From Verrucomicrobia bacterium LP2A (GTDB lineage Bacteria; Verrucomicrobiota; Verrucomicrobiia; Methylacidiphilales; Methylacidiphilaceae): DNA of 64,000 bases. The position numbers and the translations under genes were made by a program. This document shows, in pieces, positions 4,757 through 21,822 of the stretch; positions within the stretch are counted from its first letter, which is position 1; every line of letters begins with the position of its first letter. The stretch is from positions 1,178,001-1,242,000 of the forward strand of contig JAFS01000001.1 in NCBI GenBank assembly GCA_000526255.1. The letters run 5' to 3'. The notes under the pieces are model-generated. The model ran no database searches. It was not told where the DNA came from and saw only the letters and a list, made by a program, of their open reading frames with translations.

Positions 4757-6127
4757 TCATGGCAGCTCCTCCCAGAGTGCCCGCTCGAGCGCGCCCACCA
4801 TCCCGGCCAGATCGTCGGTCGTGGCGCAGAGGGGAGGGATCAGCACGAGGACATCCCCGATGGGCCGCGTCAAGAGCCCGTGCGCCCGCGCCCGCTCGCA
4901 GACCCGGAAGGCCACCTCCCGCTCCGCCGGAAAGGGTGCCCGATCCTCCCGACGTTCCACAAGCTCAACCGCTAGCACGAGCCCTTCCTGGCGGACATCC
5001 CCCACGTGGGGATGCCGCCAGAACCGCCGGGAAAGGGCGCCCAGGGCCTCCGCGGCCCGGGCGGTCCGCTCAAAGACCGCTTCCTCCTCGAAGAGCGCGA
5101 GCGTCGCCAGGGCCGCCGCGCAGCCGATCGGGTGTGCCGTGTAGCTGTGCCCATGGAGGAAGGCCCGACTCTTCCCTCCCGTGAATCCCCCGTAGATTTC
5201 TTCTCGCACGAGGGTAGCCGCCAGAGGCGTCATTCCCCCGGACAGCCCCTTGGCCAAGCAGAGCAGGTCGGGAAAGACCCCTTCCCTCCGGCAGGCGAGC
5301 CACTCCCCCAGCCGGCCGATGCCCGTGAAGACCTCATCGGCGATCCAGAAGATCCCTCTCTCCCGGCAGAGGCGGTCGAGCTCGCGGAGGTAACCCTCCG
5401 GATGCATCCACATCCCAGCGGCCGCCTGCACCTTGGGCTCGATCACGAGAGCGGCCACCCGATCGCCGTGGCGATCGAGCGCCTCCTCCAGCGTCCGGAC
5501 GCACTCCCAGGCGCAGCGGCGGTCGAGCCTCGCATCCCGGCTCCCCGCCGGCGCCCGATTGAAGGGACAGCGGTAGCAGGCTGGCGGAAGGATCGAGACC
5601 GAAGGGAAGCGCAGCCCCGCGAAGATCCGGTGAAAACGGCTCTGGGCGACGCTCATCGCACCGACGGTGTCCCCGTGGTAGCTCTCACCCAGGCAGAGAA
5701 AGAGATCGCGCTCCGGCTGGCCGTTCTGCTGGAAATATTGCCAGGCGATCTTGACCGCCGCCTCGATCGCGGTCGCCCCGTCGTCCGAGAAGAAGGCCCG
5801 ATAGCGCCGACCGCTCTCGCCAGCGGCAATGGCGGAGAGCCTTTCCGCGAGCTCGACCGCCCAGGGATGGGTCAGGCCAAGAAAGGAGACATGGTCGATC
5901 CGATCGAGCTGCTCCCGGATGGCCGCCACCACCCGCGGATGGCGGTGCCCATGGACATTGGTCCAGATCGAAGCGTTCCCGTCCCAATAGCGCCTTCCCT
6001 CCTGGTCCCAGAGATAGGGTCCCTCCCCACGCACGATCACCGGCAGGCGATAGGCGGGATCCCGCCAGGGCTGATCCGGGGTGAAGGGATGCCAGACAAA
6101 GGCCTTGTCTTGTTCCTCCGCACTCAT
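4757..6127 (-). CDS. bioA: Adenosylmethionine-8-amino-7-oxononanoate aminotransferase
   Basis: Converts 8-amino-7-oxononanoate to 7,8-diaminononanoate with S-adenosylmethionine as amino donor, in biotin synthesis. It has 456 residues, a little over the family norm of about 430. The class III PLP aminotransferase motifs are complete: the aromatic SYHGDT motif (149-154), Asp264 in IADEVFTG and the PLP lysine Lys293 in LAKGLSGG. The N-terminal WHPFTP motif is diagnostic of BioA. The gene overlaps bioF by four bases (ATGA, 6124-6127). No bioB, bioC or bioD is present in the window. Confidence 0.95.
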   Translation of the reverse strand: MSAEEQDKAFVWHPFTPDQPWRDPAYRLPVIVRGEGPYLWDQEGRRYWDGNASIWTNVHGHRHPRVVAAIREQLDRIDHVSFLGLTHPWAVELAERLSAIAAGESGRRYRAFFSDDGATAIEAAVKIAWQYFQQNGQPERDLFLCLGESYHGDTVGAMSVAQSRFHRIFAGLRFPSVSILPPACYRCPFNRAPAGSRDARLDRRCAWECVRTLEEALDRHGDRVAALVIEPKVQAAAGMWMHPEGYLRELDRLCRERGIFWIADEVFTGIGRLGEWLACRREGVFPDLLCLAKGLSGGMTPLAATLVREEIYGGFTGGKSRAFLHGHSYTAHPIGCAAALATLALFEEEAVFERTARAAEALGALSRRFWRHPHVGDVRQEGLVLAVELVERREDRAPFPAEREVAFRVCERARAHGLLTRPIGDVLVLIPPLCATTDDLAGMVGALERALWEELP

Positions 6128-7257
6128 CCTTCTTCTCTCGGAAGCTCCGACCGGAGCCTCCGGATCTCTTCGGGCGTGTGGAACGCGCAGAGCGAGATCC
6201 GCAGCCGTGCCTTCCCCTTGGGGACGGTCGGAAATCGGATAGCCGGGGCGAAGATCCCCTTTTCCCGAAGCCGGCCCGCGACCGCGACCGCCCGCCTCTC
6301 CTCCCCGTAGATCACGGGGAAGATGGCGGAGCGATCTCCCTCACCCCCTCCGAAGAGGGCGATGAGCGATCGCAGCCGCTCCCGCCGCTTCTCCCCCTCG
6401 GCCGAAGTCAGCAGGGCGAGCGCCGCCTGCGCTGCCGCGGCCGCCGGCGGCGGCAGGGCCGTGGAGTAGATGAACGGGCGCGACCGGTTGACCAGGAGCT
6501 CGACGAGCTCCCGGTCCCCCGCGACGAACCCGCCCCCCGATCCCAACGCCTTGGAAAGAGTTCCCAGCTCCACCTCGATCTGGCCTTCCAAGCCGAGCGC
6601 CTCGATGAGTCCCGCTCCGGTCCCTCCGAAGATTCCCTCGGCATGGGCTTCGTCCACCAGGCACCAGGCCCGATGCTTCTCCTTCACGGCCACCAGCTCC
6701 CGCAAGGGAGCCAGGTCTCCGTCCATGGAGAAGACGGATTCTGTGACCAGGAGCACCCGCCGGAACTTCGCCCTCATCCGGAGCAAGATCGCTTCGAGCC
6801 CGGCGACATCGTTGTGGGGGAAGACGCGCAGCGTCGCCTTACTGGCGCGCGCCCCGTCGATCAGGGATGCATGGCTCAGCCGGTCGAGAAGGACCAGATC
6901 CTCCCTCCCCACCAGGGCGGGAATCGTTCCGACCGCAGCCGCATAGCCGCTCGAAAAAACCAGGGCCGCCTCGCGGCGCTTCCAGGATGCGAGCTGCGTT
7001 TCGAGCTCCCGCTGGAGAGAGGCGTCGGGACAGAGCAGACGGGAGGCGCCGGCACCCGATCCCCGCTCGCGGAATGCCCGGCAGCCCGCCTCGATCACCT
7101 CCGGATGGCGGGCGAGGCCGAGGTAGTCGCTCGAGGCGAAGTTGACCCAGGGCCCCGCCACTCCCTCGCCCGCCGGCCGCGGCAGGGAACGGAGCAGACC
7201 CGCTTCAGCGAGTCCTTTGAGCTCCTTGTGGAGCGCCCCGCGAAATTCCGCGCTCAT
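6124..7257 (-). CDS. bioF: 8-amino-7-oxononanoate synthase
   Basis: PLP enzyme of the alpha-oxoamine synthase family that condenses pimeloyl-ACP (or CoA) with alanine to give 8-amino-7-oxononanoate. It has 377 residues, a normal length. The SSDYLGLA N-terminal motif, Asp202 in VDEAH and PLP lysine Lys236 in TLSKALGS are all present. The close relative 2-amino-3-ketobutyrate ligase is excluded mainly by context, because bioA follows immediately with a 4-base overlap. The amidohydrolase gene upstream also overlaps it by four bases. Confidence 0.93.
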   Translation of the reverse strand: MSAEFRGALHKELKGLAEAGLLRSLPRPAGEGVAGPWVNFASSDYLGLARHPEVIEAGCRAFRERGSGAGASRLLCPDASLQRELETQLASWKRREAALVFSSGYAAAVGTIPALVGREDLVLLDRLSHASLIDGARASKATLRVFPHNDVAGLEAILLRMRAKFRRVLLVTESVFSMDGDLAPLRELVAVKEKHRAWCLVDEAHAEGIFGGTGAGLIEALGLEGQIEVELGTLSKALGSGGGFVAGDRELVELLVNRSRPFIYSTALPPPAAAAAQAALALLTSAEGEKRRERLRSLIALFGGGEGDRSAIFPVIYGEERRAVAVAGRLREKGIFAPAIRFPTVPKGKARLRISLCAFHTPEEIRRLRSELPREEG

Positions 7258-13783: not shown

Positions 13784-15409
13784 TCGTCCGGTCTTCACCT
13801 ACCAGACGCGCTTGAGGCTCGCGGCAGAGCAGGTCGCGGCTCTTGACGGCTATGCGGATCTCTACGGGCAAGCCCAAGCGGGCACTCTTTGCCAGGATGC
13901 GGGTGGGGATTCCGATGGGCGATCTCAAGTGCGAGTTCCTGCGGCGCTTTGGGATCACCGCCCGGCAGTTCAACGCGATTCGCGTGGGCCTTGAGGGCAA
14001 GATCGCCTCGATCCGGGAGCGGCTTCCGGAGTGGATCGCCGAGGCCGAATCCCGCATCCAGAGAGCCGAAAGGGCAATCCGCATTCTCTCGGCGAGGGAG
14101 CCAGGCTCGGAGAAGCTGCACCAGAAGAAGCGTCGGCTTGGGAACCTTCGCGCCAGGCTTGCGGCACTGATCGCCGACCGGGACTCGGGTCGCGTCCGCT
14201 TCTGCTTCGGCTCCCGCCGCCTGTTCCGCAAACAGTTTCACCTCAAGGAGAACGGCTACGCCAGCCATGCGGAGTGGAAAAAGGATTGGCAATCCGCACG
14301 GAGCGCCCAGTTCTTCGTGATCGGCTCGAAGGACGAGACCGCGGGCAACCAGTCCTGCCAGGCTTCGGTCGAGGAAGACGGCAGTGTCACGCTGCGCCTG
14401 CGTCTTCCCGATGCGCTGGCCTCGGATGGCAAGCTTCTGGTCATTCCCGGCGTGCGATTCGCCTATGGCCAGGAGGAGATCCTTCAGGCGCTTGCCGCGA
14501 GCCGGGTTGTCTTGTCGCAGACCAAGGGCGGCAAGCCAGCCAGGAGACGAGACGGCGTCGCTGTAAGCTACCGCTTTGTGAGGGACCGGAAGGGCTGGCG
14601 GGTCTTCTCGAGCGTCCCGGCCAGGCCGGTTCCCATTGCGACAAGCCGTCTGGCGGGAGCGGTTGGAATCGACATCAACCACGACCATCTGGCCGTGGCG
14701 GAGACGGACCGGTTCGGCAACCTGCGGCGGGCCCTTCGGGTGGATCTCAACCTCTACGGCAAGACCGAGGATCAAGCCAAGGCGATCATCGGCGACGCGG
14801 CGAGGATGATTGTGGAGATGGCCCGGGAGCGTGGTCTTACCCTGGTCCTTGAGCGGCTGGATCTGAAGAAAAGGAGGGCTGAGCTTGAGGTGGCGAGTCC
14901 ATCCGCCGCCAGGAAGATCTCGTCGTTTTGCTACTCCAAGACCATTTCCCTGCTCAAGGCGGGGTGTTTTCGAGCCGGAGTCGAGGGGATCGAAGTCGAT
15001 CCGGCCTATACTTCCGTGATGGGCGCCATGAACCACGCGCGTCGTCACGGCATCAGCTCTCACCAGAGCGCGGCCTATGCCGTGGCCAGGAGAGGCTTGG
15101 GCCTCTCCCAAGCGTCCGACCGTGCGGGAGGCCGCCCGCGCCGGCCCGCGCAATGGCGGCCACCTCACCTTTGCCCTACCCGCGAGGAATCGGGCGAAGC
15201 ATGTGTGGTCGTTCTGGTCGGAGGTTCGGAGGAGGCTCAAAGCGGCGTATGCATCGCATGCCCGGTCGGGAGGCTTGCGAGAGCCGCCCGCGCCTTTGCT
15301 CCCGGAAACGCGGGCATTGGGCGCAACCTGGGCATTGCCGGCGGAATCCCGGCACGCGAACCGTCGGCAGAAGTGTTCGGCCGACGTCGTCGACGACCTC
15401 CACTGGTAG
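13776..15409 (+). pseudogene. tnpB: IS607-associated TnpB-like nuclease, two frameshifts
   Basis: A long TnpB-related protein of about 540 residues when spliced across frames. The start (MSDRPVFTYQTRLRLAAEQV) is in one frame. An extra base near 13869 moves the main body to the next frame (KPKRALFARM through HARRHGISSHQSAAYAVARR). A second shift near 15095-15110 moves the C-terminal 100 residues again, ending at the TAG at 15407-15409. The body keeps the RuvC-like Asp of GIDINHDHLAVAETD and the Glu of LVLERLDL. I see no CXXC zinc finger, as in other long TnpB-related proteins. It starts inside the end of tnpA (ATGAGTGA). Confidence 0.8.
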
Positions 15410-15413
15410 TGGG

Positions 15414-16031
15414 ATGGTTGTCTATGGTTTTAGGAACGGTGTGATCCGATCACGGCTGACGACGGTCGTCCTGGACGACGGAGAGGTCTGGCGGACGAGG
15501 TTGGGCGATGGGAAGGCCGCGCTCGCCGTGGCACCAACCGTCCTGGGAGGGAACGCGGGCAAACTCGACGTGCAATCGAAGGCACCCTCCTCGGAGGAGG
15601 CGTATTCATTCGTCGCCCAGTCGGGAGACGCGCTTTTGTTCGATCCGGATCAGCCGGTGCTCGAGATTCGGAGGACCGCCACGGGCGGGCTTCTCTTGGC
15701 GCCGGCCTCAGTGCTCGGGCCTAGGTCGGCCGCCAACGACCAATTGCGGCCCAGTTCGGAAATTCCGTTCTCAATGCAGTCGCTCGCCAGGTCGATTGGA
15801 CGGCGCGGGCTGCCGCCGGCTCCGGCGAGGAACGGACTCATGCCGGAGCCGGCGAACTCGGTCGCGGCCAGGGAGAGGGGGCTTCGGTCGTCGCCGGAAG
15901 AGCGGCATCGCGACCCGCAGCCCAAAAAGGCGTCTGGATCGGAGGCGAAAAGGAAGGCCCTATCCAAGAAGGAGCAGGAAGCGCGCAAGAGGAAGGCCGC
16001 CCAGAGGAAGAAGCACGGCTTCTGGTGGTAA
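15414..16031 (+). CDS. Uncharacterised protein with strongly basic C terminus
   Basis: I do not recognise a family. ATG at 15414 opens a 205-residue frame four bases after the tnpB remnant. The first 120 residues look like a small globular domain rich in beta-type sequence. The last 35 are almost all Lys, Arg, Ala and Glu, ending in HGFWW, suggesting nucleic-acid binding. There is no signal peptide. It may be a passenger of the IS607 element or a fragment of an older gene. Coding status is uncertain. Confidence 0.35.
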   Translation: MVVYGFRNGVIRSRLTTVVLDDGEVWRTRLGDGKAALAVAPTVLGGNAGKLDVQSKAPSSEEAYSFVAQSGDALLFDPDQPVLEIRRTATGGLLLAPASVLGPRSAANDQLRPSSEIPFSMQSLARSIGRRGLPPAPARNGLMPEPANSVAARERGLRSSPEERHRDPQPKKASGSEAKRKALSKKEQEARKRKAAQRKKHGFWW

Positions 16032-18953: not shown

Positions 18954-20735
18954 ATGACGGGCGATGGACAAGAGCCGCCACGGAACGTCCGCCCCCGGAA
19001 GAGACGATTTCTCCGGCGCATCGTCCTGACGCTCGCGCCGCTGCTCCTCCTCATCCTGCTGGTTTTCGCCGGCGGGCCCTGGGCCGGCCGGCGGATCCGA
19101 GCCAATACCGCCCTCCTTCTCTCCGGGCTCGCCCGCCGCTTCGACCTTCCACTCGATATCGCCTCGGCGGACTGGTTGTCCCCGACGGCTTGCCATCTCC
19201 ATGGCGTCTCGTTGGGAGACGTCGCCCTGATCTCCGATGTCGTGATTCGGTGGAGATGGGACGATCTCCTCCTGCGGCAGAGGCTGGCCTATGTCGAAAT
19301 TCATTCTCCGACGGTCTGGACTTCGGCCCTCATCTCCTTTCTCGAACGAGCCTCGAAGGGAGGAGGCCAACCGAACCGGTGGCTCCAGCTTTTCCCCCGA
19401 CCCCGCCTCCAGATCGACACCGTCCGGGTGGCTCGGGCGACGATCAACATCGACCGGCTCGCCCCCCACCTGCCGCCGATCCCGCTCGCCTTAGGCTTTC
19501 ACGACCAGCCGATCGAGATCCATGACATCCCGGTCGCCGGCCTGGGTCGGGACGATCGCCTCTTAAGCATCGCCGCCGCACGGAACGTGATGATCTATTC
19601 TCCCTACGATCCGCTCTCCAAGATTCTCACGATCGGCGCGCTCCGGGTGAAGTTTTCCTGGCGCGGGCTCTCGGAGCACCGGATCGACCAGCTGGCGATG
19701 TTCAATCCGGTGCTCTATCTCGGACCCGATCTTTTCTGGTACGTGGAACAATTTCGCAAGGAGGAGGAGATCCGACGAAAGAGGGGTCGCGAACGGACCC
19801 TCGAGCAGTGGAACGCCGAGAAGGTGCTCGTTCGGGGAGGACAGTTCGTGATCAGCGCCTTTGGAGCGCCAGGGATCGTCCTTCCGTTTCTCTTCGGCGT
19901 GACCTCCGCAAACGTTCCGCTCAACGACTGGACCCAGGCAAGCCTCAAGAACGAGATCGAGATCATGCCGGAACGAATCGAGTATCCTTCCTATCATGTC
20001 GTCCTCGAAGTGCGCCGAGGGCGTCTCTCCTTCAACCTGCCGCTGAGCGAGCGCAAGGCCAACAACCTCGTCCACACGATCTTCTTTGACTCGGTGTCCT
20101 GGCGGGGGATCACGGCGACTGACGACTGGCTCGACATCACCTTCACTAGCAGCGGCATCTTCGGCCACTTCGGAGGGAAGCTCTACGGCGGATATGGAGA
20201 TGGGGGATTTTCCGTCCTCTTCCAAAACGACTTCCCGTGGGACGGATGGATCCATCTGAGAGGAGTCCCGGTCGAGCCGATCGCGCGGCAGTTCACGAGC
20301 GACCGTTTCGCCCTGTCGCTCACGGGGACGGCGGGCGGACGCCTTCACCTCGATGCGCGGGGAACGAGCCTCCGGAGCGCGATCGGCTTTTTGACGCTCG
20401 ACGGCCCGGGAAAGCTCGAGATGCGCGACGTCGACTCTTTCCTCCAGCGCCTTCCCGCCGATTGGAGTCCGACCAAGCGGCAGTTGATGGAGATGCTCGC
20501 CCGATCCCTCCGCAGCTATGCCTACAACGTCGGCTTCCTTTCGCTTTCCTATGCTCTGCCGGAGAGCCGCCTCCGGCTGGAATTGCGCGGGCCCGATGGG
20601 AAGAGAAACTTCACGATTCGCTGGCAGCAAGATCCTCGCTTGGGGAAACCGATCGCAAGCGGCTTGTCTCTCGAGCAAAATTCTGGTCAGGTGCCGGAGA
20701 ACACGAATGGAGAGTATCCGCCCATCTCCCCGTAA
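18954..20735 (+). CDS. YdbH-like AsmA-superfamily intermembrane lipid transport protein
   Basis: A 593-residue protein with one N-terminal membrane anchor (about residues 23-42) and a long periplasmic region rich in beta strands. This is the layout of AsmA/YdbH bridge proteins that move phospholipid between the membranes. The primary sequence alone is only weakly diagnostic. The main support is the next gene, which overlaps it by 29 bases and encodes a YnbE-YdbL-type lipoprotein, reproducing the ydbH-ynbE-ydbL order of Escherichia coli. E. coli YdbH is longer (about 880 residues). ATG at 18954 places the anchor at the N terminus. Confidence 0.65.
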   Translation: MTGDGQEPPRNVRPRKRRFLRRIVLTLAPLLLLILLVFAGGPWAGRRIRANTALLLSGLARRFDLPLDIASADWLSPTACHLHGVSLGDVALISDVVIRWRWDDLLLRQRLAYVEIHSPTVWTSALISFLERASKGGGQPNRWLQLFPRPRLQIDTVRVARATINIDRLAPHLPPIPLALGFHDQPIEIHDIPVAGLGRDDRLLSIAAARNVMIYSPYDPLSKILTIGALRVKFSWRGLSEHRIDQLAMFNPVLYLGPDLFWYVEQFRKEEEIRRKRGRERTLEQWNAEKVLVRGGQFVISAFGAPGIVLPFLFGVTSANVPLNDWTQASLKNEIEIMPERIEYPSYHVVLEVRRGRLSFNLPLSERKANNLVHTIFFDSVSWRGITATDDWLDITFTSSGIFGHFGGKLYGGYGDGGFSVLFQNDFPWDGWIHLRGVPVEPIARQFTSDRFALSLTGTAGGRLHLDARGTSLRSAIGFLTLDGPGKLEMRDVDSFLQRLPADWSPTKRQLMEMLARSLRSYAYNVGFLSLSYALPESRLRLELRGPDGKRNFTIRWQQDPRLGKPIASGLSLEQNSGQVPENTNGEYPPISP

Positions 20736-21192
20736 GGGTTGGCTTCTTCTGGCCATTCCGATCCTCCTTCTTGGCTGCTCTCCAACGGTGCGCGTGACGA
20801 CTCCAGAGCCGGTGAGGATCAACGTCCACATGGGGGTCGTCGTCACGGAGAAGCAGAACCCGCGCGTCGCACCGGTCTCCCCCGAGGTTGCGGAGCGACG
20901 ACGGCTCCGTTCGGGGGAGATCCAGGGATTGAAAAACGCGGGCGTGGTCGGAGAAGACCGCGACGGATTCCTAGCCGTCGTCAATCCCCCGACCGACGCT
21001 TCCTACAAGCAGTACGCCGAACACGTCGTCCAGGAAGAGAACCGGGATCGCTTGAAGCTCTACATGGCGCAGACTAAATTGCAGGAAAAGCCCCTCGAAG
21101 AGATCCAGGACGAGTACGCGCGCCGCTGGGGCAGGCGCACCTTCCCGGGAGAGTATGTACAGCAGCCAGACGGAGCATGGATTCGCAAATAA
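20707..21192 (+). CDS. YnbE-YdbL fusion lipoprotein
   Basis: A 161-residue lipoprotein with lipobox LLGC at Cys24. Residues 24-48 (CSPTVRVTTPEPVRINVHMG) match YnbE, the small outer-membrane partner of YdbH. From about residue 66 to the end the sequence matches YdbL (DUF1318): a Gly-Val start, FLAVV, a helical Glu/Lys region, and the C-terminal PGEYVQQPDGAWIRK, very like the E. coli ending. In E. coli these are two separate genes. ATG at 20707 lies inside the end of the YdbH-like gene, implying coupled translation. The fusion would fix both partners at the outer membrane, which is inference. Confidence 0.8.
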   Translation: MESIRPSPRKGWLLLAIPILLLGCSPTVRVTTPEPVRINVHMGVVVTEKQNPRVAPVSPEVAERRRLRSGEIQGLKNAGVVGEDRDGFLAVVNPPTDASYKQYAEHVVQEENRDRLKLYMAQTKLQEKPLEEIQDEYARRWGRRTFPGEYVQQPDGAWIRK

Positions 21193-21199
21193 CGAATCG

Positions 21200-21822
21200 A
21201 TGAGTTTCGCCCACCGATCGTGGCTCGTCGCGCTGCCCCTCCTTCTCGCCGCTCTCGCCCTTCTCCCCCCGGCCCGAGCGCAAAGCGACCCCGAATATCC
21301 TCTTCCCGACGCGGGGGAACCATCGAGCCCGGCGCCCGAGCAGGCCCCCTCGGAAACGCCTCTTCATCCGGTACAGATGGGCCCGGCCAACTCCCCCGCG
21401 CCCGGACAGGTTCCCGCAGTCGGCGGCCCCCCCAAACCGGCCGGGAGGCGCCGTTCGATCCGACGGGAGGGCTGCGGCAGTTCCTCGAATCCCTGCCGGA
21501 GAAGCAGCGAAAAGGGATCGAGCACCGGCTCAACCGGAAAGCGACCCATGCGCTGGTCGGCAGGACCGACTCGCTCAGCGGAACCTACATCCTCGTCCAC
21601 GAAAGGCCGCCGCCCCCGAGAGCTCCGCTCGTCCACGCCTTCCTGTTGACCGACGGAAAGGTTCAGATGCTCTTTACCAGCGGCATTCCCTTCCGGGTAC
21701 CCGTGAGCCTCCGCATCTCCCGTGAAGACAAAATGTCCCTGCTCCTCTCCTACATCTTCTTCCAGCAGGCCTACCGGGTTCCGCCGGTCCTCTCCCAGGA
21801 AGCACAGCCAACGGGCCCTTGA
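21200..21822 (+). pseudogene. Exported protein gene with a frameshift at a C7 tract
   Basis: From ATG 21200 a good signal peptide (to about ARAQ) and a Pro/Ala/Ser linker are read. Coding character then moves to another frame at a run of seven C (21427-21433). The second frame continues with EAPFDPTGGLRQFLESLPEK and a compact domain of about 120 residues to the stop at 21822. One missing C would explain it exactly. It could be a real mutation, a slippage-controlled gene or an assembly error. Family unknown. It lies seven bases after the YnbE-YdbL gene, so it probably belongs to the same envelope operon. Confidence 0.65.

Follow-up and report, generated by a model that had tools for sequence, protein, structure and literature searches.

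The analyzed window, a stretch of 64,000 nucleotides, comes from a genome of 2.47 Mb (G000). The close relatives of this genome that bear a name are Methylacidimicrobium species, which are acidophilic methanotrophs within the Verrucomicrobiota. The window contains two consecutive genes on the plus strand: one (18954..20735) codes for a YdbH-like protein of 593 amino acids, with a predicted N-terminal membrane helix followed by a predicted beta-rich periplasmic part, and the other (20707..21192) codes for a lipoprotein of 161 amino acids in which a YnbE-like segment is fused to a YdbL domain. The two genes overlap by 29 bases according to the ORF coordinates (20707..20735), which suggests that they are translationally coupled. 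The original prediction, made from this DNA alone, had the coordinates, lengths, overlap and sequence right, all of them matching the ORF data. An ExbD/TolR-like protein and a bactofilin are encoded near the pair, and a long ORF in the upstream flank (13843-15444) resembles, by eye, an OrfB/TnpB-type transposon protein. The gene next downstream of the fusion (21200-21822) codes for a secreted protein with no assigned function. Its reading frame is interrupted near 21426-21433, where a C-rich run differs in length by one base from that of two relatives; either the assembly is wrong at this point or the frameshift is genuine.

In Escherichia coli, YdbL is a separate periplasmic protein, and its job for the YdbH-YnbE bridge is, to our knowledge, poorly understood. 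YdbH and the outer-membrane lipoprotein YnbE take part in the supply of phospholipids to the outer membrane (PMC8593681, PMC11784454, PMC12977461), and the ydbH-ynbE-ydbL genes have been linked to lipid homeostasis in this bacterium (PMC8593681, PMC11784454).

The fusion lipoprotein consists of a signal peptide, the lipobox LLGC (20767..20778, plus strand), the YnbE-like segment, an approximately 19-residue linker and a DUF1318 (YdbL) domain that extends to the last residue, the C-terminal end being PGEYVQQPDGAWIRK. Cys24, the predicted lipid attachment site, was invariant across 20 aligned fusions. The YnbE-like segment, recognized by YnbE profiles and by a conservation peak, comprises residues 24-47 (CSPTVRVTTPEPVRINVHMGVVVT; 20776..20847), and it is followed by the poorly conserved linker (residues 48-66; 20848..20904) and by the YdbL domain (residues 70-161; 20914..21189), all three on the plus strand. 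The identity of the YdbL half is certain: Pfam PF07027 (DUF1318) matched residues 70-161 above its cut-off (6.9e-18, profile positions 6-92 of 92), and an AF2 model that was confident in this domain (block pLDDT 92-98) superimposed on the E. coli YdbL crystal structure (28oj, named "probable chaperone-like protein YdbL" by its depositors) with a Z of 13.5 and an rmsd of 1.4 Å over 86 of 87 residues. The same entry was also found by sequence with the fusion profile (1.3e-14). The predicted presence of a complete YdbL/DUF1318 domain was thereby confirmed by profile and structure, as was its proposed physical tie to a YnbE-type lipoprotein by the single reading frame that they share. The domain is not a separate soluble periplasmic protein here, as it lies in one frame with the lipobox and the YnbE part; this is a difference of architecture, not of domain.

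The Pfam model for YnbE (PF13617) gave no match to the fusion protein of the window, and across 387 genomes of the phylum it never exceeded its cut-off, producing only sub-threshold matches even where YnbE is encoded by a separate gene. This failure is a limit of the Pfam model, since 43 fused and 89 separate YnbE loci were found by other means. An iterated YnbE profile, which had taken in relatives of the window's protein, matched the segment at 2.6e-5. Using a leave-out profile built from stand-alone YnbEs only, the window's segment scored 3.8e-4 and that of a relative (genome G008) 2.9e-6, against 0.046 for the best negative control, and fused N-terminal parts from other families gave E-values down to 2.5e-23. 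Some relatives carry an unmistakable YnbE sequence in frame with DUF1318, for example CTPTIKTENEVTIKPIQITLDVNLKVDQEL. The stretch from C24 to T47 was also the region with the highest conservation in the fusion (2.63 bits per column, compared with 2.02 for DUF1318 and 1.50 for the linker), and it shows the layout of a YnbE, a lipobox followed directly by a conserved strand motif and encoded between ydbH and the YdbL domain. In the AF2 model of the fusion monomer the segment was without structure. Judged from the window's protein alone, its identification as YnbE is suggestive; considering the chain of relatives, the position and the conservation, the segment probably belongs to the YnbE family. 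It had been expected that profiles would match both halves: this was borne out for DUF1318, and for YnbE the negative Pfam result was overturned by the relatives and the more sensitive profile, so that the YnbE label is probably right.

The 593-amino-acid YdbH-like protein gave no match to any Pfam or NCBIfam family, PF11739 (YdbH) included. Among 27 aligned relatives, PF11739 matched three (best 8.8e-6), other matches being to DUF748 (1.1e-6) and AsmA (1.1e-4). In an hhalign run of its family profile (A4) against a profile combining E. coli YdbH with PF11739 proteins from Verrucomicrobiota, residues 332-555 aligned to the C-terminal region of YdbH (probability 90.5; P 1.3e-6, calculated for a single comparison), and the A4 profile found one verrucomicrobial YdbH at 2.8e-9. 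The hhalign result and the PF11739 matches among the relatives uphold the YdbH-like label given in the original prediction. With a profile built from seven A4 members, relatives were detected in 64 out of 236 genomes belonging to the class, and G000 had a single one. The AF2 model, of moderate confidence (mean pLDDT 75.7), contained an N-terminal helix and about 25 strands. The helix (residues 16-50; 18999..19103, plus strand), modeled with low to middling confidence in a hydrophobic sequence, is the predicted inner-membrane anchor. A Foldseek search of the model against the PDB gave no significant match; in a second look with VIA-align, LPD-3 had the top rank (Z 11.1 over 244 residues), and Vps13 (8.4), ATG2A (7.8) and TamB (6.3) came further down. 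Outer-membrane barrels, scoring 6-9, filled much of that list and Z values lack specificity below about 8, so for this model LPD-3 alone of the bridge-type matches stands clear of the barrels. These matches point, with moderate confidence, to a bridge-like lipid-transfer fold. The last beta strand of the model, GKRNFTIRWQ (E549-558; 20598..20627, plus strand), corresponds to the 12-residue block that ranks fourth in conservation within the family and would offer a natural edge for an added YnbE strand, which makes it a candidate docking edge.

DUF1318 was present in 134 of the 387 sampled genomes of the phylum, and PF11739 in 118. We collected 141 distinct DUF1318 loci, 140 verrucomicrobial ones and that of E. 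coli. Fused YnbE-DUF1318 proteins were found at 43 of the 140 (41 by the iterated profile; the other two, recognized by eye, are second paralogs from the genus of the window) and belong to 13 of the 33 families represented in this collection; at 89 verrucomicrobial loci, as in E. coli, a separate YnbE ORF lies upstream of ydbL, and eight loci had YnbE neither fused nor separate. The question raised with the original prediction, whether the fusion occurs across the phylum, was thus answered positively, and the fusion is no peculiarity of the window's locus. Five of the 13 fusion families contained unfused members as well. On the DUF1318 tree the fused state required at least 3 changes, against 36.5 with shuffled labels, and the supported branches, on a tree of few columns and long branches, are compatible with one origin of the fusion. 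Within the window's YdbH-like family, a fused lipoprotein followed the YdbH-like gene at 58 of 66 loci (a redundant set), among them loci of Methylacidiphilum, Verrucomicrobium and Prosthecobacter. At the other eight (L210, L212, L214, L217, L220, L232, L233 and L245) no DUF1318 or YnbE lipoprotein adjoined the YdbH-like gene, the partner being elsewhere or lost. Chance as a source of the gene arrangement is excluded, because the same arrangement recurs in dozens of genomes. Two loci of one genus (L186 and L187, genomes G145 and G165) had an in-frame TGA within the DUF1318 profile match, which represents either an early stop or a recoded TGA.

The arrangement resembles ydbH-ynbE-ydbL of E. coli K-12, where the genes follow in this order and the first two overlap by 4 bases: both systems share gene order, tight spacing with overlap, an AsmA-type protein of the inner membrane (predicted here), a YnbE-type lipoprotein and a YdbL domain. 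They differ in that YnbE and YdbL are one protein here and separate proteins there, and in that the YdbH-like protein has 593 residues and falls below Pfam detection, compared with about 880 residues for YdbH. The 89 separate verrucomicrobial operons have the three parts in the same order, with YnbE sequences close to those of many fusions, but in them YnbE and YdbL are encoded by two genes, and YdbL carries a Sec signal of its own and lacks a lipobox. The TamB-TamA and TamB-TamL systems also combine an inner-membrane AsmA-type protein with an outer-membrane partner; that partner, however, is a barrel or a barrel lipoprotein and not a YnbE, and G000 has no TamB match. LPD-3, Vps13 and ATG2, eukaryotic bridge-like lipid-transfer proteins, gave the N-terminal half of the model its best structural matches, although they are much longer and the likeness seen is one of structure. 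The description of the locus as a compact version of the system applied to the number of genes and to the short YdbH-like protein, but did not hold for fusions as such, since these also occur beside YdbH-like proteins of 1000-1200 residues. An association of the fusion with short YdbH proteins was accordingly rejected, the upstream YdbH-like ORFs of fused loci reaching 1222 residues.

Genome G000 codes for a second fused lipoprotein (C2:695756-696040; locus L033, ORF 5727-6227, minus strand) with no YdbH neighbour, and such a second fusion was also found at this site in relatives of two genera, Methylacidimicrobium and Methylacidiphilum. The YnbE parts of the two second paralogs from the window's genus scored no better than the controls with the stand-alone-YnbE profile (0.15 and 0.23). 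In G008, which has a single copy, ydbH and the fusion lie in a gene neighbourhood matching that of the orphan, with homologous CHASE2 and Nudix-like genes and two further neighbours in common; since a ydbH-fusion pair occupies that site in G008, the orphan has probably lost its ydbH. PF05359 (DUF748, of the AsmA superfamily) gave one strong and two weaker matches in G000 (C1:506994-509990, C1:992284-992649 and C1:625442-625894), proteins that could be further bridges, and the idea that the pair is the only AsmA-type bridge of the genome was therefore rejected. Two MCE (MlaD-type) proteins are coded elsewhere in G000. No match to PF04357 (TamB), PF05170 (AsmA) or PF13116 (YhdP) was obtained in this genome; this is weak evidence for the absence of these proteins, because Pfam misses the YdbH-like protein too.

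On the computed domain identities, fusion, gene order, recurrence and YdbL fold, the pair probably constitutes a two-gene, fused version of the ydbH-ynbE-ydbL system, a bridge for phospholipid transfer in which YdbL is tethered beside YnbE. By analogy with E. coli we infer an outer-membrane location, docking, lipid transfer and a guarding role of YdbL, which would operate as follows. The YdbH-like protein would be anchored in the inner membrane and extend a beta-rich groove through the periplasm towards the outer membrane, where the lipoprotein would be held by Cys24. The YnbE segment would join the YdbH-like protein at its C-terminal edge as an additional strand, closing the bridge, and phospholipids would be transferred along the closed bridge. 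The linker would keep the YdbL domain next to YnbE, on which it would act; tethered in this way, each YnbE would have its own YdbL, one per YnbE and with no free diffusion, and YdbL would guard the sticky strand until docking. With 593 residues, a third fewer than in YdbH of E. coli, the YdbH-like protein may be too short to span a periplasm as wide as that of E. coli. In a tentative and rather unlikely elaboration of this model, the attached YdbL would be a built-in cap or gate that, at one copy per YnbE, blocks the stacking of YnbE into multimers and so controls both bridge length and bridge opening, and the orphan second fusion would serve another AsmA-type protein, such as the DUF748 protein at C1:506994-509990. 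If this were true, one modulator design would feed several bridges.

Other explanations of the locus were considered. That the fusion arises from annotation, assembly or a frameshift joining two genes could be suspected from the one-base frameshift in the C run of the next gene downstream, but the same single open frame was found at 43 distinct loci in 13 families, and this recurrence in independent genomes refutes the artefact, leaving it a vanishingly small probability. The N-terminal part could instead have ceased to work as a YnbE and be a generic lipid anchor and linker, placing at the outer membrane a YdbL-type domain that alone meets the YdbH-like protein. The missing PF13617 match, the score of just 3.8e-4 with the stand-alone profile and the second paralog, which lacks a YdbH neighbour and whose YnbE part is weaker still, are in line with such an anchor. 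We nevertheless regard it as unlikely, given that the segment is conserved above the YdbL domain and far above the linker, that fusions of other families contain unmistakable YnbE sequence, and that no separate YnbE gene was found in G000 at the Pfam level. The pair might also be a structural envelope tether, or serve outer-membrane protein assembly as TamB does with TamA, and not transfer lipids; TamB appears among the structural matches, and the ExbD/TolR-like and bactofilin genes are nearby. The closest folds, however, are those of lipid-transfer proteins, and the genes are ordered as in ydbH-ynbE-ydbL, which in E. coli has been linked to lipid homeostasis (PMC8593681, PMC11784454); a tether or assembly function is therefore quite improbable.

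Short, diverged relatives of YdbH occur throughout one class of the Verrucomicrobiota, where current models miss them, and the known range of the YdbH-YnbE-YdbL system is thereby widened beyond Pfam detection. The fusion is a widespread variant of ydbH-ynbE-ydbL of which no description was found in the literature searched. Its main value lies in what it says about the target of YdbL: because the natural fusion recurs in many families, it provides Rosetta-stone evidence suggesting that YdbL acts on YnbE, its partner in the bridge, by a direct route and at the membrane of YnbE, and that neither diffusion nor an excess of YdbL is needed.
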